Of a stretch of DNA of 34,491 bases, positions 1,088 to 34,335 are shown in pieces. The stretch lies in IMG/VR virus record IMGVR_UViG_3300036834_000159, positions 1 to 34,491 of that record; one strand, 5' to 3'. The stretch comes from a virus. The notes under the pieces were generated by a model. It saw only the letters and a list, made by a program, of their open reading frames with translations, did no database searches and was not told where the DNA came from. How positions within the stretch are numbered: position 1 is the first letter of the stretch; each line of letters starts with the position of its first letter. Both the position numbers and the translations under genes were made by a program.

Positions 1088-4000
1088 CTATGGTATGTCG
1101 TATGTTAAAGCCGATATATCAACGTATTGAGAATTTCCAACAACCTTGATTTGTATAGAATTCCCGATACTTGGCTGCGCTGTCCCCAACATAGCTACAC
1201 GAACTGTTTGCAATTCTGTTGCGTCTCCTGCAGCTAGCTTAAATGTGTTTCCGGTCGGCCTGATAGAAGCTGGAACGGTGCCTATCCCAAAAGGATAGGT
1301 TGTCCCTGTCATAGCACCACTTGTTCGCTCAACCTGCCCTCTGAAGGTAATTGTTCTCTTTCCCTTCATGTTATATGAGATCTGATACTGGCAGGGATTA
1401 TTTTCAGAAGTCCTGAAACCAGCTGCATATGACAAATTAATCCAAGGTGTATCAGTTAGTTGTCTAGCATGTATCATTCCAGAAAAACCATTTTCTCTGT
1501 CATTTAGAGTCAAAGTATCAAAAGAAAGTGAAGCAGATGCGATCAACTCATTTTGATCTCCTGCAGCTGACCCGCTATACCTAGCCATCGACACGAACTG
1601 GTGACTAAATATAGTCTCGTATGATTGGGTTATTGCCCCTTGAGAGTTCTTAATTACACCTGAGTTATAAAGTTCAGCAGATCCAATTCTTTGGGTACCC
1701 TGTGCAAAAGTCCCATCATTGTAGGATCTTGTGTAAGGATTTATAAACTCAGATCCAACAATCTCGGCCCCTTCTAACCTTTTGAACACCCCATTCTCAG
1801 AAAGAATGTTGGTAGCAAGTAAGTTATCAATAGGCATCCCCCACATACTCCATGCAGTGCCGTCAAATACTTTAATGATCTGAGGAACAACGCTGCTATC
1901 TTGCCATAAAGTTCCTTTTGTTGGATTGGCAGGTGCTGTATCAGAGATAATGATCGCATCTTTGCCTTGTTGAGCGACAAGATAGAAATAAGCACTGTAG
2001 GTATTGTCCGTATATTTGAATCTGGTACGTGTCCACATATACCAGCCCGCTTTAGGTGTGGGTCTTGTCCCTGACCATCCAGACGTTGGCGGAGTTATTC
2101 CATCTTGAGAAATAGAATAGCTGATTTCTTCTGCAGCAACCCCTTTGCCGGTGTTCCCTGTTGCCCCTTGTAAAGATAGAGCGTAAGAAAACTGCTTTGT
2201 GAATGTTTTGCCATCAGCTGTGATTGTGATTGGCACAGTACCACTCTTACTTGTCATAGCCGTAGTGACTGTAAATGTAATGATTGCTGTACCAAGTCCG
2301 CTAACTGTAGAAGTCATTCCTGTTGGCATAGTTCCGACAGATATCGCAGTAGGGTCTATTTTACTGATTCCCTTGTAAATCACAATTTGTGTTGTAGTTG
2401 AACCAGCCAATGCTGCAGTTGTTGATCCCGCAAAGGTGTAGGATTCGTTTGTAAGGAAAACAGTATAAGCATCTGCACCAGGGGTACCTTCCCCACCGTC
2501 TTTGATTCTAGAAATGGTGAATACATCGCTCACAGTCGCATCTGCCGCCTTGATGGTAAACGTATCAAATACAGCTTTTGTAGGATCAATCGTCACAATG
2601 TTACCTGATCGAGTAACTCCTGTAGGAACAGCTGAACCAAAATTCCCACCGTTTAGACTATACGTCCAATTTGAGATAGCAGTGTTTACTGCAGTTCCGT
2701 TCACCGCAAAACTAGAAGCTGGAGTGATCTTTCCATCTTTATCAACTGTGATCGCTTGTGTTGCACCTGATAAAGAAATGAGTGGTGCTGAATCTCCTTT
2801 GGGGCCTTGTCCCCCTTGCGGTCCCATGAAGGGTGTCCATGGTTTATAATCGTCAGGATTATCAGACCCAACTTGATTCGTATCTGAATAGAATCCTTCA
2901 TATTTTGGATAGGCTTCGCTATAATTCTCATTCGGCGAAGGTATGTCCACAGTAGAAAGACTCCCCAACTCAACCTTAACATTCTTAATAGTTGGTATAC
3001 GTCCACTATCGTATACCCCGTAAAATGCCAAGAGCGCTTGGGTCATAGTTGTTCCTGTTTGTAGTTGTGGAGTAACCGTCACACTATAGCGTTTGTATTC
3101 AGTTGTTGCTTGGACTGTAGTTGTTCCAATGTTGTACTTAGTTCCAGATCCATTTTGAGAATAAACTTGTATTGGACCTGAAACAGCAGATTTCAAATCA
3201 AATGATATTGTATATTCGATCCCGATCCCATATTTTTCAAATATCGGAGCTAAATCCCATCTGGAATCATTTACAAATTCCCTAGAAGCAGTTTTTTCGA
3301 ATCTAGAAATTGAAAGTAAATTCTCATTCGGATAAACCTTGGTAAACATCCCATCTGCCATCAAATATCCACGATGTGGATAGTATGTTTCACCTTCTTT
3401 TCCATCTTTTACCTTTACAATACTCAGTATGTCGCTTAAATTATCCAAAGTTGCGGTAATGGCGATCAGCGTCCAATCTTTGTTTGTCCACTGCGAACTT
3501 GTTAAAGTTCTTGTGTTACCAGTTCCACCAAGAGTGATTGCGGTTTGAGCAGTGTTACCAATGTAGGGAATAGCCGTAAATGTTGCTGTTCCTGTGACGT
3601 TTTGAAGTTTTGCCGATATGTTGATTGTCTGAGTTGTCTTCGGAGTATCATCGGCATTGAAAGCCATATTCTCAGCTGAAGCTGTAAGATAGAGCAACTT
3701 AGCATTCGCACCATCTGCACCCATCTTCCCTACCGAATAAGCATCCGTTTTTGAATCATCCGTGTAAACGATTGTTGTTCTAGTCCAAAGATATTGGTTT
3801 GCAGAAACAATAGGAATTGTTACTTGCCATCCGCTTGAAGGTGGTGTATTTCCGCTTGTTCCCACAGCATAACTAATTGATTTATCTCTGATACCTAAAC
3901 CTGAAGGTCCATCAGCCCCCATTAATGTAGGAGTCTGAGTTTCAGAAGTTGTGTTATCGGTATAAGTGGTAACGATTCTAGTCCACAAGTACTCCCCAGG

Positions 4001-5461: not shown

Positions 5462-6963
5462 AAGTAAGCCTCCTGATTGTAAAGTTTAAAACTTGGCGCT
5501 TGTGCCCAAGAGGAATAAATACACTCTATTTGATTAATCCCAGGTTCCAAAAAGAATTCTTCCCAGTCATTCCCTAAACTGCCCAAGCCTTTTTGCTCGA
5601 TTCCGTTTAGCGTGACAATTCCCGTACTACAATTTGCTCGCAGAACATCAGCTTCCCCAAAAAGATTCTTCACATCTCGAACCTTCTCAACTTTATCTTT
5701 TCGAAATGTGGAATGAGTGAGTTTCATATGTGATAACGGTGTGCCATTTACAGGAACTCCCATATAATAAACAACATCAGTCACTTCAACGTCCTTCAAT
5801 TCATCTAATCGAATGGAATGGATAAAGCCGCCGTTGGCGACTCCCCCAACATGGAATCTCAACAAGTTCCCTTCTTTCACAATCGAAAACTCTCTGCCTT
5901 TTTTGGTATAGAAATTCCATGCAGTCGGTTGAAAGGACCATTCTTTCCAATTACCTTTTACATTGATTCGAATCTTCGCATTATTATTTGAAGAAGAAAG
6001 CTTATAAAAAGTCACTGAGCACACCGCTTTACCTGAAGCATCACGCAGTTCCACAATGTAGATACCTGTTTGCCGAATATTTCCAGTTTCAAACCACACA
6101 CCATGACGAGACTCAAAATCTTTTGCCCCGACATGTCCTTGTGAATCAGGCGACACCTTACGACCATACGTGATCCCTTTGAAGCCTTGTGTGCCAGTTC
6201 CGTAAGAATCCGGCGTTACAAATCCGTAGCCGCCATCTGATCCAAACTTCCTAGTACCGTTAGCATTTAGTTTTTCCGTTCCATTCCACAAACCGTCAAA
6301 CTGGTATCCATTTATTTTCCATCCCCGGCTTGCTTCAGCAGAAGCAATCATGACCGTATCCCAAATGACACGATCTGATTCAGTGTAACCAACTCCATCA
6401 GCTTCATCGGGATTACCAAATTGCAAGATTTTACCTCTATTGTTGATAAAAGCAACCACACCATTGTCTCCTGGCATCGTTGCTTCTAAGATTGGATATG
6501 ATTTGTATGTCCCTTTATTATTGACGGTGAATGTATCTGATTGAGTGGTATAGATATCAGTCTTTGTAGCATATGCGATTCCTTCTGGAACATAAAACGA
6601 AAGACTAATCCTCACTTGATTCTTATCATCCATTTCTCTGACAAACGATGATGAGCCATCAATAATAGCATTCCAATACCGATCTTTAAAAATTGAAATT
6701 TGTAACTGTTGGGGTGTTTCCTGATTCAAAATCTGGGCTAGAGTATCACGATCGGCAATGTAATTTTCGGAAGCCATCAGGAAGCTAAGAGGGATAGATT
6801 TCCCTTGATTTCGTTTGTACTTAAATTTTTTACCATCATTTTTGGTTTGATCCTCATAGACATTCTCAACTTCCGGAAGTATGCCCCAATCAGGAGCTTC
6901 ATCTAAGTCCATTTTTTCTGTTAAATTTGATCCACTATAGATTATAGTTACATCTGATATCAA
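5458..6963 (-). CDS. Distal tail protein (Dit), enlarged form
   Basis: A 501-residue protein, about twice the length of a classical Dit. Residues 1-170 match the Sipho_tail N-terminal belt that forms the hexameric ring between tube and tip (SGSNLTEKMDL..., the IPLSFLMASE and SFYVPEGIAYA strands). The final 100 residues resemble the galectin-like Dit C-terminus. Between them, about residues 215-400 form an insertion with beta-strand and aromatic character (KIRINVKGNWKEWSF, LLRFHVGG), as in 'evolved Dit' proteins that carry a carbohydrate-binding module. The start is TTG, overlapping the tape-measure stop in TTGA. It acts in the baseplate with Tal, and the insert probably helps host binding. 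Confidence 0.85.
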   Translation of the reverse strand: MISDVTIIYSGSNLTEKMDLDEAPDWGILPEVENVYEDQTKNDGKKFKYKRNQGKSIPLSFLMASENYIADRDTLAQILNQETPQQLQISIFKDRYWNAIIDGSSSFVREMDDKNQVRISLSFYVPEGIAYATKTDIYTTQSDTFTVNNKGTYKSYPILEATMPGDNGVVAFINNRGKILQFGNPDEADGVGYTESDRVIWDTVMIASAEASRGWKINGYQFDGLWNGTEKLNANGTRKFGSDGGYGFVTPDSYGTGTQGFKGITYGRKVSPDSQGHVGAKDFESRHGVWFETGNIRQTGIYIVELRDASGKAVCSVTFYKLSSSNNNAKIRINVKGNWKEWSFQPTAWNFYTKKGREFSIVKEGNLLRFHVGGVANGGFIHSIRLDELKDVEVTDVVYYMGVPVNGTPLSHMKLTHSTFRKDKVEKVRDVKNLFGEADVLRANCSTGIVTLNGIEQKGLGSLGNDWEEFFLEPGINQIECIYSSWAQAPSFKLYNQEAYL

Positions 6964-9900
6964 CCTCTTATCCCCCTTCCTCTGATTTGTGTTCGTTCTC
7001 TTCGATTAGACTCCTCTATAATCACATCGCCTAAAACTCTACGATTCAGTTCAAATTTCACGTTTCGGAGATCCTTTCCAAAGGAAGACATTATGGCAAT
7101 CAATTGATCAAGTTTGTCCGAATAGTCTTGCGTATTAACAATCGTAGTTGATGTTGGCTCTACAGATGGACTCATACTTCTCAAGTTTCGAACCAATGAG
7201 GAATCTTCCGGAATACCCACGCCGTCGGCATACTTTGGAATGCCCAAGCGCCGCATGATCGATTTGGTGATACTAGCTCGAGCAACTTTCGTTCCTGCAG
7301 GAGCATTGGGAATATACACATTTCGACCTTGAGGTATAAATGGAGCCTGACCAGGGAACTGAACCAACTCTTTGTATAATGGTCCTGATTGATCATTTAC
7401 GATCATATCTCCACCCGGGTGGTAATTTGTTCCTTTGGCATTTGGAATAGCTGTTTGTCCTGTTCTTCTCCCACGATACTCAACATCGATTACCACATTT
7501 TTGCTATATACTTGAGCAATTTCACTCTTCGCTCTTAGTACTTCAGAATAATCTGCTGTTGCATGTAAATGTTTCGCACCAACACCAGTAGCATTGTAAT
7601 CATTGATTTTGCTCTTAGAGTTTGCCAATATGCTATTTACATTTGTATTGTCTCCCAATAATCTTTTCAGCTCTGGAGAAACACTGTTATATGTTTCTAG
7701 CATTTTCTTAGATTGACTAACCGTTAAAGTTGCTGGATCTTCTGCTATCAATCTTTTAACTTCTGGATCTAGTGCGTTATACTCGTTTAATGAAGTTTTC
7801 GAAAAGCTTAATGCATTTAAGAGATCATAATTTTCAGCATTCAAATTTTTAATCTGGGGTTGAAATTGCTCCCACATTCCCAAATTAAGCATTGTTTCTG
7901 CCATGACTTCAGGAGTATTAGAGTAAAGGAATGCTTTTTTCTCATCAAATGACATCTCTGCCCATTTTCCCGAGTCTTCTAATGCTTTGTACATTGTTAT
8001 CGAAAATTCGTCCTGTAGTATTGCTTTTTTATCGGACCAAGCCATACCGTCCCACCAACCATTAGCAATTGCAGCTTCACCGATAACGTCTTTTGCATTA
8101 CTATCTAAGTCGGCATCATGGACTACTAGCTTCAAATTATTCCACGTTAGAGAATCTTTAGTAGCTTCTGTAACGACCTCTGCAACATTGGATTTAACTT
8201 CTCCGGTCTTTTCATCAAAAACTAAATCATTCCAAGTTTGAGCTGCTTTCTTACCAGCCTTACTTGATTCTGATGCAGTCCAAGAGATTTTTTCCGCATT
8301 CTTTTCTGCATTTGATGCCAATTCTCTTGATAAGTCAGAAGCGCTCTTTAGGATTTTTTCGTTTTCTGCAATTGCACTATCAGCATAATCACCCATACTT
8401 GAAATTAGTTGCCCGTTTGCAAGAGAGACCTCATTTTGTAATTCAGGATATTTTTTAAGAATCGTTTCCATTTGAGAATCAAAACCTTTTACAGTCGTTG
8501 AATTTATCTCATCCCAAGCCGCCAGAAATATCTTAGCGAACTCACCATCTAAGTTGTATCCCAAATCTTGTAGGTACTTTTCTTTTTCTTGTCTACTTAA
8601 AGTTGCATTTTGCTGGGCTATCTGCCTTTGCTTACCTAAAGATTGCAACCACAATTTCGCTTCTTCCTCTGTTGCATTTGCTACATCTGCGTTCATGGCT
8701 GCAAGTATTTTTTTCTTCTCGTTTGCAGAAACATCTAAAGTTTCAACATATGCTTGAGTTGTATTTTTCGCCAGATCTTGAATAATTTTTGCTTCAGATA
8801 CACTAATCTCTCGATTGCTATTACTAGCTGCTTTCTTTATCTCTGTGATTCTTGCGGTATTCTCTTGAACTGTTTGTAATGCAGATTCCGCCTTAACTTT
8901 TTCGTCTTCTACCATTTCACTGACAGAAGAATTAACAGATTCAGGAAGCTCTTTTATTAATTTATCCAAGCCCTCGACTTTCTTCACAAGGCTGTCTTCA
9001 ATGGTCTGACCTATTTTCTCAAAATTTGAGATCATAGAGTCAGAGTTAGTGGCAAATCCATCTGCCATTAAACCAAATTGCCCTGATGCTTTTTGCGTAT
9101 TATCCTGCACTTTTGTTAAGGTGCCATCAACGGCTTCTCCAACATCAGTTCCCCATCGTTGAACACGTTGACTAGAATTCCAGGCTTCTTCACCGAATAA
9201 TTTCCATGCACCATACCCGACTGCAAGAGCACCACCAACACCGACGATACCAAGAATAAGTGGACCTAATGGACCGAGCGCAGCCGACATGGCTCCTATG
9301 CCACCAGATCCTGCCGCCCCACTGGCTGCAGCTCCAAATTGTGTCATGGTGCCTGACCCACCTGCTAAAGTTTTTAGAAAGTCATTGGCGGAAATATCTC
9401 CATCAATAAATGATTTTTTAACTTCATCAATAGCTTTTTTCTTGGCCATGTTTGCACTTAGATCAATAAAGGATTTTCCTAACCCTCCAATTGTGCCACT
9501 TAATTTCCCGGTAATTGATAACAAAGGGCCAGCGGCCGCAGTAGCAGCTATCAATTTTACGATCATCTGTTGGGTTTTAGGATCCGCATTGCTAAACGCC
9601 TCAGCTAGATTACCGATTTGTTTGATTAAAGGTTTGCTCGATTCTAATCCATCTCTTAATGCGTCAACAAAAGGACCTCCTAAATCAATAGCAGCGTTCA
9701 CTGCCTCATTCCTAAGCATTTTTAGTTTGGATTCCGTTGTTTCGTACCGCTTGCCAGCTTCTTCAGCAAGTGCAGTATTTTCTCCGAATGCTTTGTTACC
9801 CATTTCTACCGCCCCAGCAAATACTCCGCTGGCATTAGCTGCACGCAGCAAACTGTCTCTTAACCGAACTTCAGTTATACCCATGTCATCCAACACACTA

Positions 9901-28652: not shown

Positions 28653-28946
28653 ATGGATTTTTCAATTTACTTGTTGCTTTCTATCGCCAACTTAAAAGGC
28701 AAGGTCAAAATTAAGGACAATTATCGGCACCTTGATTTTCTAGAAGAAAAAAATTGGGTTGATCGCTTACCAGATGGAACTTACTCATCAGGACATTGGG
28801 AACTACCTAACTATGGAGATTACTTTGCTATTACTACTGAGGGTAAGAGTGAACTTTTCAACTTCCGTTCAATAGTAATAACTAGAATTATTTCTATAGC
28901 AGCTCTTATAATTAGCTTCCTAGCATTTATATTTTCAATTTTTTAA
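28653..28946 (+). CDS. Plus-strand moron: winged-helix-like domain with C-terminal membrane anchor
   Basis: A 97-residue protein. Residues 1-70 look like a winged-helix domain (YLLLSIANLKGKVKIKD, HLDFLEEKNWVDRLPDG, and the wing/turn DYFAITTEGKSELF). Residues 73-97 form a terminal membrane span (VITRIISIAALIISFLAFIF). AAGGGG precedes the start, an extended -10 promoter lies upstream, and a 16-bp hairpin covers the stop codon. The reading direction opposes the early operon. A membrane-tethered sensor or superinfection factor is a guess; no family is recognised. Confidence 0.7.
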   Translation: MDFSIYLLLSIANLKGKVKIKDNYRHLDFLEEKNWVDRLPDGTYSSGHWELPNYGDYFAITTEGKSELFNFRSIVITRIISIAALIISFLAFIFSIF

Positions 28947-28960
28947 TTGAAAATATAAAT
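28925..28960. terminator. AT-rich hairpin between convergent genes
   Basis: A perfect 16-bp stem (ATTTATATTTTCAATT with AATTGAAAATATAAAT) around a TTTT loop covers the stop codons of both the plus-strand moron and the convergent small minus-strand gene. It probably acts as a bidirectional, perhaps weak, terminator. Confidence 0.6.
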
Positions 28961-29084
28961 TTATCAACGCTATGATCAATGCACCCACAGCAAATGTCAG
29001 ATTTACGAAATCGTCCCAGTCACGCCGTTCTTTATCAGTTGGGAACGGCTTTTTGGAATAGTTTGGTTTTTTTGGTATCTTCAC
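28935..29084 (-). CDS. Tiny membrane protein convergent with the moron
   Basis: A 49-residue ORF starting at GTG 29084 behind AGGTGAG: VKIPKKPNYSKKPFPTDKER, then RDWDDFVNLT and a hydrophobic span FAVGALIIALINLYF. Its last 12 bases overlap the 3' end of the plus-strand gene. The ribosome-binding site and codon pattern support it; function unknown. Confidence 0.55.
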   Translation of the reverse strand: MKIPKKPNYSKKPFPTDKERRDWDDFVNLTFAVGALIIALINLYFQLKN

Positions 29085-29089
29085 ACTTC

Positions 29090-29284
29090 TCACCTCACTT
29101 CCATCGTTCTATTCAACCGATTCTGATAAATTAACTCTTGATAACTCCGCAGTTCTCGAATCGATAAATCTCGTTGTGTCTCTGTTAGTTGTACTTTCCG
29201 ATCGTTAAGTTGATCGTGCAAGCTTCTGATTTTTTCTTTGGTAAGATCATGTATCAGTAGTTCTTGGGATAATGTGTATTTCAT
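29090..29284 (-). CDS. Small helical early protein
   Basis: A 64-residue, wholly helical protein (LLIHDLTKEKIRSLHDQLNDRKVQLTE in segments, then LRSYQELIYQNRLNR). ATG 29284 follows AGGAGG. No family recognised. It is in the immediate-early part of the leftward operon. Confidence 0.6.
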   Translation of the reverse strand: MKYTLSQELLIHDLTKEKIRSLHDQLNDRKVQLTETQRDLSIRELRSYQELIYQNRLNRTMEVR

Positions 29285-30027: not shown

Positions 30028-30447
30028 ATGGAAGTGGGAAAAAGAATAAAGCAAAGAAGAAAGGAGTTAGGATACAACGCTGATTACCTAGCAGCTAAAT
30101 TAGGTGTCTCAAGATCCACCATATTTCGTTATGAAAAAGGGGAAATAGAAAAGCTTCCTACAGAAGTTCTAGAGAAGTTAGCAATTTCTTTGGATACAAC
30201 CCCAGGATATTTAATGGGTTGGACAGAAAAACCTCAGGACAAGTTACTGAACATTTTTAATCAATTAGACAAAAGAAAACAAGATGAGGTTTACAACTTT
30301 GCTAAATTTAAGCTTAACGAACAGAAGAAGGAGATTTTCACTATAGCTGCTCACTCAGAAGATCCTAATAGAATGGTTTCAGATGAGGATCTTAGAAAGA
30401 TAAATTCATTTCTCGATGAGATGGATAATAAATTTGATAAAAAGTAG
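30028..30447 (+). CDS. Prophage repressor (XRE family, ImmR-like)
   Basis: A 139-residue protein with an XRE/HTH_3 domain at about 5-65 (VGKRIKQRRKELGYNADYLA, then KLGVSRSTIFRYEKGEIEKLP and LDTTPGYLMGW), then a linker (QLDKRKQDEVYNFAKFKL) and an acidic helical C-terminus. It lacks a LexA/S24 peptidase domain, so it cannot self-cleave, and the adjacent ImmA-like gene should supply the protease. ATG 30028 follows GGAGG. It binds the 16-bp operators upstream and holds PR off. Confidence 0.9.
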   Translation: MEVGKRIKQRRKELGYNADYLAAKLGVSRSTIFRYEKGEIEKLPTEVLEKLAISLDTTPGYLMGWTEKPQDKLLNIFNQLDKRKQDEVYNFAKFKLNEQKKEIFTIAAHSEDPNRMVSDEDLRKINSFLDEMDNKFDKK

Positions 30448-30455
30448 GTTTGTTT

Positions 30456-30932
30456 ATGGATGATTTTGAAGTGCTTCTGTCAAATGTTGCTGCTGAGTTA
30501 CCAGTTATTGAAGGTCCTGTTGAAAGTGCAACTGGCTATACTGCTTTATATAGAAACGGAAGAATTTATTTAGAAAAAAATAAGTCCAATAGAAAAAAGA
30601 AAGTTGTTTTGGCTGAAGAGTTCGGTCACTATAAAAGAACCGTTGGAAATATTCTTGATTACAAAGCTGATGGGGCATGGAAAGAAGAGTGGAAGGCTAG
30701 AAGGTTTGGAATTGAGATGTTAATCACACTTGATGATCTTTTAGATTGCGCTTTAAACGATTGTAATAATATTTATGAATGTAGCGAGTTTCTAAATGTG
30801 ACTTTTGATTTTTTTGAAGATGCACTTATACATTACTTCAACAAGTATGGCAAATATCATTACCATCGCAACTATAAATTTACATTTGACAACGAGTACC
30901 TATTTGTTGAACCCATTAAAGTTTTCGGATAA
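30456..30932 (+). CDS. ImmA/IrrE-like metalloprotease with EExGH in place of HExxH
   Basis: A 158-residue DUF955/ImmA-family protein: YRNGRIYLEKNKSNRKKKVVLAEEFGHYKRT (in segments) corresponds to the catalytic helix. The first His of HExxH is replaced by Glu (Glu54-Glu55-Phe-Gly-His58), a variant found in many prophage ImmA-like proteins. The downstream helix EEWKARRFGIEMLI supplies the third ligand region. It lies eight bases after the repressor and is expected to cleave it on induction. ATG 30456 follows AGTAGG. The Glu substitution leaves its activity open. Confidence 0.82.
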   Translation: MDDFEVLLSNVAAELPVIEGPVESATGYTALYRNGRIYLEKNKSNRKKKVVLAEEFGHYKRTVGNILDYKADGAWKEEWKARRFGIEMLITLDDLLDCALNDCNNIYECSEFLNVTFDFFEDALIHYFNKYGKYHYHRNYKFTFDNEYLFVEPIKVFG

Positions 30933-31024: not shown

Positions 31025-31576
31025 ATGAAGGGTATATGGAAAATTTTAGCAATCATTACAGGTGCGTTTGTGGCGTTGTGTGTGTTTATCTTGGTGGCAG
31101 CCGCATTATTCAGTACTGATGAAAAAGAAGCAACTGCCAGTAGTGAATCCACTACAATCACGACTATCGAAACTAGTGAAGTTAATTCCGACGAAACAAT
31201 TGTACTATCAAACTTTATCAATAGGTTTTACGAATACGTTGTAGCATACGATGCAATTCCTAATGAGAGCGGTTCTAAAACTACAGCTTGGGAAGAAGTA
31301 AAAGGATCCACTGTCGAATGGTCAGGAAAAGTTATTGATTCATCTGATGATAGATTATATGTAATTGCTGATCAAAAATACGAAGACGGACTTACTTGGT
31401 CCGAGGTCTCCGGTACAGATTTGGCTTATTATGTATTTATCGCTAAATTTGAGGATGGAAAAACTATTTCTAATTATTCAAACGGTGAAGAAGTAACCGT
31501 GTCTGGAATTCTAGAAAGTCGCGGCGATAAAGAATTGAAATACAATTGGGATATTATCAACTCTTCAATCAATTAA
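31025..31576 (+). CDS. Membrane-anchored protein with OB-like domain (tRNA_anti-like)
   Basis: A 183-residue protein. Residues 4-30 are a signal-anchor (WKILAIITGAFVALCVFILVA), then a Ser/Thr linker (ATASSESTTITTIETSE), and from about 60 a beta-rich domain (TTAWEEVKGSTVEWSGKVID, YYVFIAKFEDGKTI, EEVTVSGILESRG) typical of the tRNA_anti-like/OB group found in secreted Firmicute proteins. There is no lipobox. AGGAGG precedes ATG 31025. It lies between immunity genes and integrase, the usual location of lysogenic-conversion genes, and is probably displayed outside the membrane. Confidence 0.72.
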   Translation: MKGIWKILAIITGAFVALCVFILVAAALFSTDEKEATASSESTTITTIETSEVNSDETIVLSNFINRFYEYVVAYDAIPNESGSKTTAWEEVKGSTVEWSGKVIDSSDDRLYVIADQKYEDGLTWSEVSGTDLAYYVFIAKFEDGKTISNYSNGEEVTVSGILESRGDKELKYNWDIINSSIN

Positions 31577-31621
31577 CTTTAATTAAAATGATTTCTAAAA
31601 TGAAAGAAACGAGGAAGTATA

Positions 31622-32539
31622 ATGAAAGAATATGTTTATTTTGATCGTCAATTAGTTAATTCAAGCTTAGCTCAAATCGATGAAGGTATTCTAACAAAAT
31701 TGATTTCAGGTCAGTCAACAACAGACACTAGCCAAGAAGATGGCGGTGAAGAAATAACATTAGGTTCAAATGGCGGACTTAATGCAGTAATTGCTTCAGC
31801 TAAAGCCGAATATTCAAAAAAAGAAATAGACAAATTTAGCAGTGTATATTCTAAAAATAATAGTGAATTAATAGAAACTGCTCTAGACGACTATTCTTTA
31901 GATGTGTTGATCGACAAGCTCCAAACTGGAAGCTTACTTAAACAGTCCTCTGATAATTTAACAGATGGTGATATTTTTGTTTCAACCGAAAACTTCGATG
32001 TCTTTAACTTTGAACAATTAAAAGCTAGTGTAGAAAAAGATAATCTTGAGAATATCTTGAAGACACCAATAGAAATTGATGAAGCTAGAGTTGAGCTTGA
32101 AAAACTATCTAAAAATGCTCATTCACGAGTAAAGCATAAAGATAGAATAAATTATTTAGAAGAATACCTTAAAAAGAATGACTCTTATACTAACTATGGC
32201 TATGCGCTAAAATTTGCTAACTATTCCTCAGTATTATTTCCAAACACTACTTTATTCAGAATCGGTTCTTTTTTAGCATTCTGTAGTTCTAGTCATTTAC
32301 GTATTAATCTGCCTCTAATGACATTTTTATCACAGACCAAAAGAAAAATCACAATTCTAGGAATTGTGACTACTAAACGTGATAAAGAACTGGCGCCTGA
32401 AAAAGGTGTACAACTACCATCCGATATCATGGCATCGTCATCTCCTGCTATTCTTTCGGATATCTTGCTTGATAAATTTGGAATAGCTCCATTAGGTAGT
32501 TATTTTGTGAGACCAATAGCTATTTACTTTGAGAATTAA
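31622..32539 (+). CDS. DUF6414-like protein, cargo gene
   Basis: A 305-residue protein beginning KEYVYFDRQLVNSSLAQID, the opening of DUF6414-type proteins ('YlD...vnsllaQi..Gl'). A Ser/Gly/Glu-rich stretch follows (STTDTSQEDGGEEITLG), then helices (ELIETALDDYSLDVLIDKL), an acidic middle and a compact C-terminal alpha/beta domain (RIGSFLAFCSSSHLR, KRKITILGIVTTKRDKE). No catalytic motif is seen. GAGGAAG precedes ATG 31622. The family's function is unknown; its place next to the integrase suggests accessory or defence cargo. Confidence in the family is moderate. Confidence 0.7.
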   Translation: MKEYVYFDRQLVNSSLAQIDEGILTKLISGQSTTDTSQEDGGEEITLGSNGGLNAVIASAKAEYSKKEIDKFSSVYSKNNSELIETALDDYSLDVLIDKLQTGSLLKQSSDNLTDGDIFVSTENFDVFNFEQLKASVEKDNLENILKTPIEIDEARVELEKLSKNAHSRVKHKDRINYLEEYLKKNDSYTNYGYALKFANYSSVLFPNTTLFRIGSFLAFCSSSHLRINLPLMTFLSQTKRKITILGIVTTKRDKELAPEKGVQLPSDIMASSSPAILSDILLDKFGIAPLGSYFVRPIAIYFEN

Positions 32540-32705
32540 ACTGCTCCATACGTTTCGAAACTCTGATGGACTGATTATTCACTTGTTCTCTTAATGTAAT
32601 ATGATGTTTTTTTGAAACTTTAAACCGTGTAGCATTTTTTTCTTCAAGATATTTAAATTCCTTCTCAAGTTTTTTTTGAATGCTTGGTCTTTCTATAATC
32701 ATCAT
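32520..32705 (-). CDS. Convergent 61-residue Lys-rich protein
   Basis: A 61-residue minus-strand ORF starting at tandem ATGs (32705/32702) five bases after GGAGG: MMIIERPSIQKKLEKEFKYLE, then KNATRFKVSKKHHITLREQ and VNNQSIRVSKRMEQ. A TATAAT box lies at 32729-32724, about 20 bases upstream. Its last 20 bases overlap the end of the DUF6414-like gene. It is basic and helical, a possible regulator or partner of the neighbour; no family is recognised. Confidence 0.6.
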   Translation of the reverse strand: MMIIERPSIQKKLEKEFKYLEEKNATRFKVSKKHHITLREQVNNQSIRVSKRMEQFNSQSK

Positions 32706-32723
32706 ATCCACCTCCGTATACTG

Positions 32724-32729
32724 ATTATA
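32724..32729 (-). promoter_or_regulatory. -10 box of the convergent small gene
   Basis: TATAAT on the minus strand, about 20 bases before the ATG at 32705 and just ahead of GGAGGTGG. No convincing -35 element is present at 17 bases. Confidence 0.5.
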
Positions 32730-32858
32730 GCAAATTTTTCTATAAATAGTTTTATTATTTTGGATTTTATAAAATGGTTTCATTATTTTCTTTTATTTAC
32801 TTTAAGCTTTAAATATTTTTTTACATTTTGTTGAAAGGAGTGGTGCCACCTCGTTCTG

Positions 32859-32890: not shown

Positions 32891-34102
32891 ATGATTAAAA
32901 AGTATAAGAAGAAAGATGGATCTACTGCCTATATGTTTCAAATATACTTAGGCGTTGACCCTATTTCTGGTAAAAAGAAACGAACAACGAAACGAGGGTT
33001 TAAAACACAGCAAGAGGCAAAGCTTGCACTTGCTCGTTTACAACTAGAATCAAAAGAACCTGATTTCATCACTGAAACAACAAAAACATTTGAAGAAGTA
33101 TGCAATATGTGGTTAGAGCAATATAAAAACACAGTAAAGGCTAGTACTTACACTATTCAAAAAGTTGCGATAGACAAACACATTCTCCCTTCATTTGGTC
33201 ATATCCGAATGAGTAAGATTACTATTCAATTTTGTCAAAAACAGGTAAATCATTGGTTTAGTTATTATAAAAAATACTCCAACTTAATCGGTATCACGAC
33301 ATCAGTATTCAATTATGCTATCAATATCCGGTTACTCAATAATAATCCAATGGATGGTGTAATTCGACCTAAGAAACAGCAAAAAGTAGATGAAGAGGAC
33401 TACATCGCACCTTTCTATGATCGTGAACAGTTGCTTACTTTTTTGTCGGTGGTAAAAGAAAACTATTCAGAACAATTATTTGTGATGTTTCGCATTCTTG
33501 GTTATACGGGTCTCCGCAAAGGAGAATTGCATGCATTACGTTGGAAAGATATTGATTTCGTTAAGAAAACTCTTAACGTTAAACAAACACTAGCAACTAT
33601 TCAGAATTGGGAGTTAGTTTTTCAGCCGCCGAAGACAAGAAAAAGTATTCGTACTATCTCTTTGGATGATGAGACGCTGGGTCTGATAAAAAAATGGAAA
33701 TTACACCAACAAAAATTTCTTTTTCAGTTTGGCATAAACTCATTATCTCAAGGTCAATTGCTCTTCCCTTCTACTGAAAACAAACCGCTTTATCTAGATT
33801 ACCTGAACCATAATCTTTCGAAAATCCTGAAAGAAAATAATTTGCCTAAAATGACTGTCCACGGATTTAGACATACTCATTGTAGTTTACTATTTGAAGC
33901 AGGTGTTTCAATAAAAGACGTGCAGGAACGAATGGGCCATACTGATATTAAAACTACTATGAACATATATGCTCACGTAACTGAACAAAGAAAAGAAAAA
34001 ACTGCTCATGACTTTGCAAACTTCATGGCAAACGGCAGTCCAGATCCAGATAAAAATACTAGGGGTAGTCAAAGGGGTAGTCAAAGGGGTAGTCAAATGT
34101 AA
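32891..34102 (+). CDS. int: Tyrosine integrase
   Basis: A 403-residue tyrosine recombinase. The N-terminal arm-binding domain (about 1-50: KKYKKKDGSTAYMFQIYLG, then KRTTKRGFKTQQEAKLALARL) is AP2-like. The core-binding SAM-like domain lies at about 65-160. The catalytic set is complete: Arg209 (GYTGLRKGEL), Lys248 (PPKTRKSIR), His324 and Arg327 (HGFRHTH), His350 (MGHTD), Tyr360 (NIYAHV). The last 13 residues, RGSQRGSQRGSQM, come from a 12-bp tandem repeat that recurs beyond the gene. AAAGGA precedes ATG 32891. It integrates and, with an excisionase, excises the prophage. Confidence 0.95.
   Translation: MIKKYKKKDGSTAYMFQIYLGVDPISGKKKRTTKRGFKTQQEAKLALARLQLESKEPDFITETTKTFEEVCNMWLEQYKNTVKASTYTIQKVAIDKHILPSFGHIRMSKITIQFCQKQVNHWFSYYKKYSNLIGITTSVFNYAINIRLLNNNPMDGVIRPKKQQKVDEEDYIAPFYDREQLLTFLSVVKENYSEQLFVMFRILGYTGLRKGELHALRWKDIDFVKKTLNVKQTLATIQNWELVFQPPKTRKSIRTISLDDETLGLIKKWKLHQQKFLFQFGINSLSQGQLLFPSTENKPLYLDYLNHNLSKILKENNLPKMTVHGFRHTHCSLLFEAGVSIKDVQERMGHTDIKTTMNIYAHVTEQRKEKTAHDFANFMANGSPDPDKNTRGSQRGSQRGSQM
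34061..34096 (+). repeat. Three tandem 12-bp repeats at the integrase 3' end
   Basis: AGGGGTAGTCA occurs at 34061, 34073 and 34085 with a 12-base period and one A between copies. Two more copies lie at 34312 and 34323. This arrangement on both sides of the region after int resembles arm-type integrase binding sites. Confidence 0.85.
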
Positions 34103-34311: not shown

Positions 34312-34333
34312 AGGGGTAGTCAAGGGGTAGTCA
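34312..34333 (+). repeat. Two further AGGGGTAGTCA copies
   Basis: Direct repeats at 34312-34322 and 34323-34333, 11-base period, matching the three copies in the integrase 3' end. Confidence 0.85.
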
Positions 34334-34335
34334 AT

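Follow-up and report, generated by a model that had tools for sequence, protein, structure and literature searches.

Organization of the locus

The window analysed here is the whole of the IMG/VR virus record IMGVR_UViG_3300036834_000159 (34,491 bases), which probably derives from a temperate phage of Enterococcus, judging by its closest phage DNA matches. No tRNA and no Rfam family were detected in it. Its lysogeny module comprises, on the plus strand and in this order, an HTH repressor (30028..30447; phrog_2967, 2e-26; HTH_3, 3e-13), an ImmA/IrrE-type metalloprotease (30459..30932; PF06114, 1.4e-9; phrog_87, 7e-34), a membrane-anchored cargo protein of 183 aa (ORF1, 31025..31576), a DUF6414 protein of 305 aa belonging to a prophage branch of its family (ORF2, 31622..32539) and a tyrosine integrase (32891..34102; phrog_1, 1.4e-83). 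A gene for a small basic protein (ORF3, 32520..32705, minus strand) is placed between the DUF6414 gene and int. It converges on ORF2, and the two coding sequences overlap at their 3' ends by 20 nt (32520..32539). A first-pass annotation, made from the letters of the DNA alone, had missed this overlap; the three ORFs, with ORF3 convergent, are all present where it had placed them, and the arrangement of HTH repressor, ImmA-like gene, cargo and int agrees with its description of the slot as a lysogeny cargo locus.

The same annotation had credited ORF3 with its own ribosome-binding site and -10 box, and both were recovered on the minus strand, as the Shine-Dalgarno sequence GGAGGTGG (32708..32715) and the extended -10 promoter element TGCTATAAT (32724..32732). 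An intrinsic terminator for the small-gene transcript, consisting of a stem-loop followed by TTTCTTTT, lies on the minus strand within the DUF6414 coding sequence (32347..32371); its energy was -10.7 kcal/mol, and none of 20 synonymous shuffles produced one as good. Judged by these promoter, ribosome-site and terminator signals, the small gene is a transcription unit of its own.

Two other features of the record were noted. The first is a second convergent pair with overlapping 3' ends (12 nt). Its plus-strand gene (28653-28946), which sits within the minus-strand early region, encodes 97 aa that include a hydrophobic stretch near the C-terminus (phrog_37868, 3.6e-27), and its minus-strand gene (28935-29093) encodes 52 aa (phrog_31339); the two may represent a further noncontiguous operon. 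The second is a set of tandem repeats of the GGGGTAGTCAAA type at 34059-34102, from which the C-terminus of the integrase (GSQRGSQRGSQ) is translated; two further copies are located about 220 nt downstream (about 34313-34335). The repeats may be arm sites for the integrase or belong to attP.

ORF1 is exchangeable cargo

ORF1 had been described as a membrane-anchored OB-like protein. A membrane helix is indeed predicted at its N-terminus (residues 2-30); the OB-like part was left unconfirmed, with no Pfam match and a single-sequence AlphaFold model (pLDDT 48) whose quality was too low for such a fold to be assessed. The protein matched PHROG 19175, of unknown function (5e-10), and a homology search in 296 genomes, phages and IMG/VR returned no match. 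Matches to polyubiquitin among PDB sequences were discarded as summed repeats over 35 residues. In the Enterococcus gallinarum phage phiEG37K, a repressor, a gene in the ImmA position, the membrane-anchored ORF39 and int follow one another with no DUF6414 gene between them, and ORF39 resembles ORF1 in its first 41 residues only (46% over 41 residues), which suggests domain exchange behind a constant anchor. The gene preceding DUF6414 differs in almost every lineage, although it often encodes a membrane-anchored protein or lipoprotein. Since this gene is variable, and an ORF1-like gene exists in phiEG37K without the pair, ORF1 is an exchangeable cargo gene with a shared anchor and stands outside the conserved pair described below. 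The shared anchor is encoded at 31025-31150 of the window and, in the phiEG37K locus (L136), at 3104-3230.

The DUF6414 protein and its relation to Dodola

ORF2, previously labelled DUF6414-like, scored 53.9 bits against PF19952 (Pfam gathering cut-off 25) across profile positions 1-283 of 283, and is thus a genuine full-length DUF6414 protein; it also matched PHROG 16607 (phrog_16607, 6e-30). Relatives were drawn from GenBank phages, IMG/VR and GTDB contigs, and about 1,100 genomes were searched for the family in three sets (20/396, 16/399 and 7/299 above the cut-off). PF19952 matched 18 of 18 prophage-branch relatives. Residues Y6, D8, S14, Q18, G22, D90, R227 and P298 are invariant in the first 28 members of a 31-member alignment, and no R-x4-6-H motif is conserved in DUF6414. 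The AlphaFold (AF2) model reached a pLDDT of 79, with residues 22-76 disordered, and in fold searches neither PDB nor viral structures matched it significantly (best E 0.095 and 0.84); the weak PDB matches include many OB-fold proteins and are unusable as evidence. Sequence searches of the PDB and of plasmids with the DUF6414 protein returned no match, and among the papers searched none uses the name DUF6414.

Another DUF6414 branch, with proteins of about 255-285 aa, corresponds to the DolA protein of PADLOC, which recognized 9/9 of its members (down to 1e-87), and its genes are followed directly by DolB, a ClpB-like AAA+ ATPase (1e-128 and 1e-133). DolA and DolB form the Dodola system, which is active against SPP1 in Bacillus (B. 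subtilis) and against many streptococcal phages (S. thermophilus) (PMC11514479, PMC12322248). The window protein did not match the PADLOC DolA model at E<=1, the best E-value among 31 relatives was 0.0058, and a profile-profile comparison of prophage DUF6414 with DolA gave 16.5% probability across 35 columns; the family link is drawn from PF19952, which matches both branches over their full length. The earlier statement that none of the three genes has a recognizable characterized function must therefore be amended for ORF2, since DUF6414 is the family of Dodola DolA, while the window protein itself lies outside the PADLOC DolA model. The two branches differ at the C-terminus, which is PIAIYFE in the prophage branch and resembles VYDVxLAGV in DolA. 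They differ also in their neighbours: matches to the DolB profile were confined to DolA-type loci, with none in the 34.5 kb record or at the prophage-branch loci, where a convergent small gene is found instead. In its structural passage on Dodola, PMC11514479 assigns a Clp-like hexameric fold to DolA and a ClpB domain to DolB; the two names seem to be swapped there, as PADLOC DolA is the DUF6414 protein.

Other copies of DUF6414, with or without DolB, adjoin type I, III and IV restriction genes, SEFIR and SIR2-candidate genes, SpbK/TIR, PDC and DndB-like genes. At locus L101 (oriented coordinates), the gene directly after DUF6414 (5980-6780) is of the PDC-S35 type and resembles TIR (6789-7640), and at L114 the genes directly after DUF6414 (5962-6882) are PDC-S02 (DUF1016-type) and a TIR gene like SpbK; each may be one more DolB-free defence combination of DUF6414.

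Conservation of the convergent pair

ORF3 encodes 61 aa, or 60 aa counted from the second ATG, with a net charge of +8. Pfam, PHROGs, NCBIfam and PADLOC contained nothing that matched it significantly, and homology searches of phages and IMG/VR with the small proteins of the window and of locus L016 were negative. Its position is nevertheless shared: a convergent small ORF follows DUF6414 in 21 distinct Bacillota lineages, comprising phages and genome-resident copies and counted as separated by sequence rather than phylogenetically, in which the identity of DUF6414 to that of the window falls to about 16%. In phages of Streptococcus, Lacticaseibacillus and Lactobacillus fermentum and in enterococcus-like phages, it overlaps the 3' end of DUF6414 or lies directly against it, and an overlap is present in 20 of the 21 lineages. 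The small ORFs encode 49-72 aa with net charges of +3 to +11, and a third to nearly half of their residues are charged. In the 21 pairs the small protein was positive in all cases and DUF6414 negative in 20. Under fixed criteria (a ribosome site, 45-80 aa, a stop between -50 and +5 of the gene end, a charged fraction of at least 0.33 and a net charge of at least +3), such an ORF was found after 21/28 full-length DUF6414 genes of the prophage branch as against 1/442 other genes of the DUF6414 loci, and the sole qualifier is the 3' half of the DUF6414 gene of L018, which carries a frameshift. Searches of 50,697 phages and IMG/VR with small-gene products found matches only in records with DUF6414, intact or broken.

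The expression signals recur as well. A promoter lies upstream of the small ORFs, ahead of the ribosome site and often with an extended -10 of the form TGNTATAAT; the promoter scores of the 21 loci summed to 198, compared with a mean of 144 and a maximum of 165 in mononucleotide shuffles. About 11 of the 21 lineages carry a minus-strand intrinsic terminator within the DUF6414 coding sequence that no more than 1 of 20 synonymous shuffles equalled. In L002 and L003 it occupies the same place as in the window, and between the window and L002 the stem is kept by a paired base change. No such terminator stronger than -6 kcal/mol was present in the 13 DolA-type or PDC-linked DUF6414 copies tested. 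That ORF3 is a chance antisense ORF is ruled out by the background of 1/442, the terminators and the promoter scores.

Close copies of the small gene align gap-free, and most of their differences fall on third codon positions. Divergence of the small protein followed that of DUF6414 (r=0.71), although the correlation fell to 0.41 without near duplicates and was gone once further close pairs were removed, so that it is carried by close relatives; the small protein showed no correlation with the divergence of int (r about 0.12). The pair is often just ahead of an integrase, which at L092 is replaced by an apparent serine-type recombinase. At L008 and L087 it is near endolysin or amidase-like genes and not beside an integrase, and the module thus fills other slots too.

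At three loci (L009, L018 and L030) DUF6414 is broken by a frameshift or stop and the convergent small ORF is intact, and at L093 the reverse holds, with DUF6414 intact, the small ORF decayed and a strong minus-strand terminator still present. An inhibitor, if that is what the small protein is, is thus not always essential. The pattern fits a costly defence gene, the numbers being small; the 3:1 ratio of breakage itself carries little weight because DUF6414 is five times longer than the small gene.

Comparison with known prophage immunity pairs

In the Staphylococcus aureus prophage 80alpha, Tha, expressed from the cI operon, blocks incoming phages, and is inhibited on induction by Ith, a 66-aa protein whose overlapping antisense gene lies beside int, has its own promoter and was formerly annotated as xis (PMC11087260). 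In the record of 80alpha, int, ith and tha are arranged in this way; tha encodes 301 aa, the overlap measures 64 nt and a TGATATAAT element is present. The locus studied here resembles Tha/Ith of 80alpha and phiNM2 (PMC11087260) in having a lysogeny operon with a defence gene of about 300 aa followed by int, and a convergent gene of about 65 aa that extends over the 3' end and has its own extended -10 promoter. The overlap is shorter (20 nt), Tha is a HEPN RNase in place of a DUF6414 protein, and Ith-1 is acidic (-8) whereas the small protein is basic (+8). No relation was detectable between Tha-1 and the DUF6414 profile (0.1 bits, compared with 258 for a DUF6414 member) or between Ith-1 and the small-protein profile (1.7 bits). 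Tai/Ati and Tab/anti-Tab (PMC11364771, PMC10884400) offer a broader analogy, each joining a prophage defence protein expressed in lysogeny to a dedicated protein antagonist, with a noncontiguous operon in Tai/Ati too; in both, however, the antagonist is in the late operon, the hosts are Gram-negative and the action is on tail assembly.

Proposed function and alternatives

On the strength of the anatomy shared with Tha/Ith, we propose that 31622-32705 is a two-gene prophage immunity and autoimmunity module, composed of a DUF6414 defence protein and a dedicated small-protein inhibitor, and we put the probability of this reading at about 0.52. By analogy with Tha/Ith, the lysogen would express the DUF6414 protein through the repressor operon, and this protein would act on superinfecting phages. 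The gene for the small basic protein would be driven by a minus-strand promoter of its own, immediately upstream of int, and its product would bind the acidic DUF6414 protein and switch it off. During lysogeny, rightward transcription of the repressor operon would oppose the small gene; upon induction this transcription would drop, the small gene would be released and the lytic cycle of the phage itself would be spared. An anti-phage role, as the first-pass annotation had suggested for the locus, remains the best reading. Its idea that the three genes could work together stands for DUF6414 and the small ORF, which form a strongly conserved pair, and not for ORF1, whose position is variable.

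The opposite charges and the near-obligate pairing in phages would also suit a positive partner, that is, a small protein that forms a two-component defence with DUF6414 and replaces DolB as its cofactor or sensor, and DolA of the other branch does have a constant neighbour in DolB. Members of a complex are normally co-transcribed, however, whereas these genes face each other and the small one has its own promoter and terminator, and the loci at which either gene persists beside a broken or decayed partner also speak against it; this reading appears unlikely but not negligible. Two small genes encoding a basic and an acidic protein, together with the three loci retaining the small gene beside a broken DUF6414, might instead be taken for a toxin (DUF6414) and its antitoxin, serving prophage maintenance and not defence. 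We consider such an addiction pair improbable, given that pairs of this kind are usually co-transcribed, that the DUF6414 of L093 is intact although its small gene has decayed, and that the relatives of DUF6414 are defence proteins amid defence genes.

An excisionase, or another integrase helper that merely abuts DUF6414, would explain a small basic protein encoded next to int, and ith itself formerly carried the annotation xis. The distribution of the small gene led us to reject this very improbable explanation: no relatives of the small protein were found in thousands of int-bearing phages without DUF6414, the gene also occurs before the apparent serine-type recombinase or with no int nearby (L008, L087), its divergence is uncorrelated with that of int, and no recognizable family was matched in Pfam, PHROGs or NCBIfam. 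Hardly credible is a single system of ORF1, DUF6414 and the small ORF. ORF1 and DUF6414 are 45 nt apart on the same strand, and membrane-anchored or lipoprotein cargo often precedes DUF6414, but the changing identity of that gene and the ORF1-like gene straight before int in phiEG37K mark ORF1 as variable cargo, and this version was rejected too.

Under the proposed defence and inhibitor module, the components are new and the design is the known one of a noncontiguous defence/antagonist operon, here built from a Dodola-family protein and uncharacterized small basic proteins. A bolder and distinctly tentative extension is that such modules constitute widespread, undescribed self-immunity pairs of Bacillota prophages, in which a DolB-free protein of the DolA family is checked by fast-evolving basic inhibitors whose genes run head-on across its 3' end. 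The basic inhibitors might also serve as counter-defence against the DUF6414 systems of other cells.

If the proposed module is real, a natural DolB-free DUF6414 protein with an apparent inhibitor would make it possible to study with one protein how the family senses or blocks phages. Two genes annotated as 'hypothetical' in phages of pneumococci, enterococci and lactobacilli would become a testable pair, and the noncontiguous defence/antagonist operon of Tha/Ith would be a general design, reached here with unrelated proteins.
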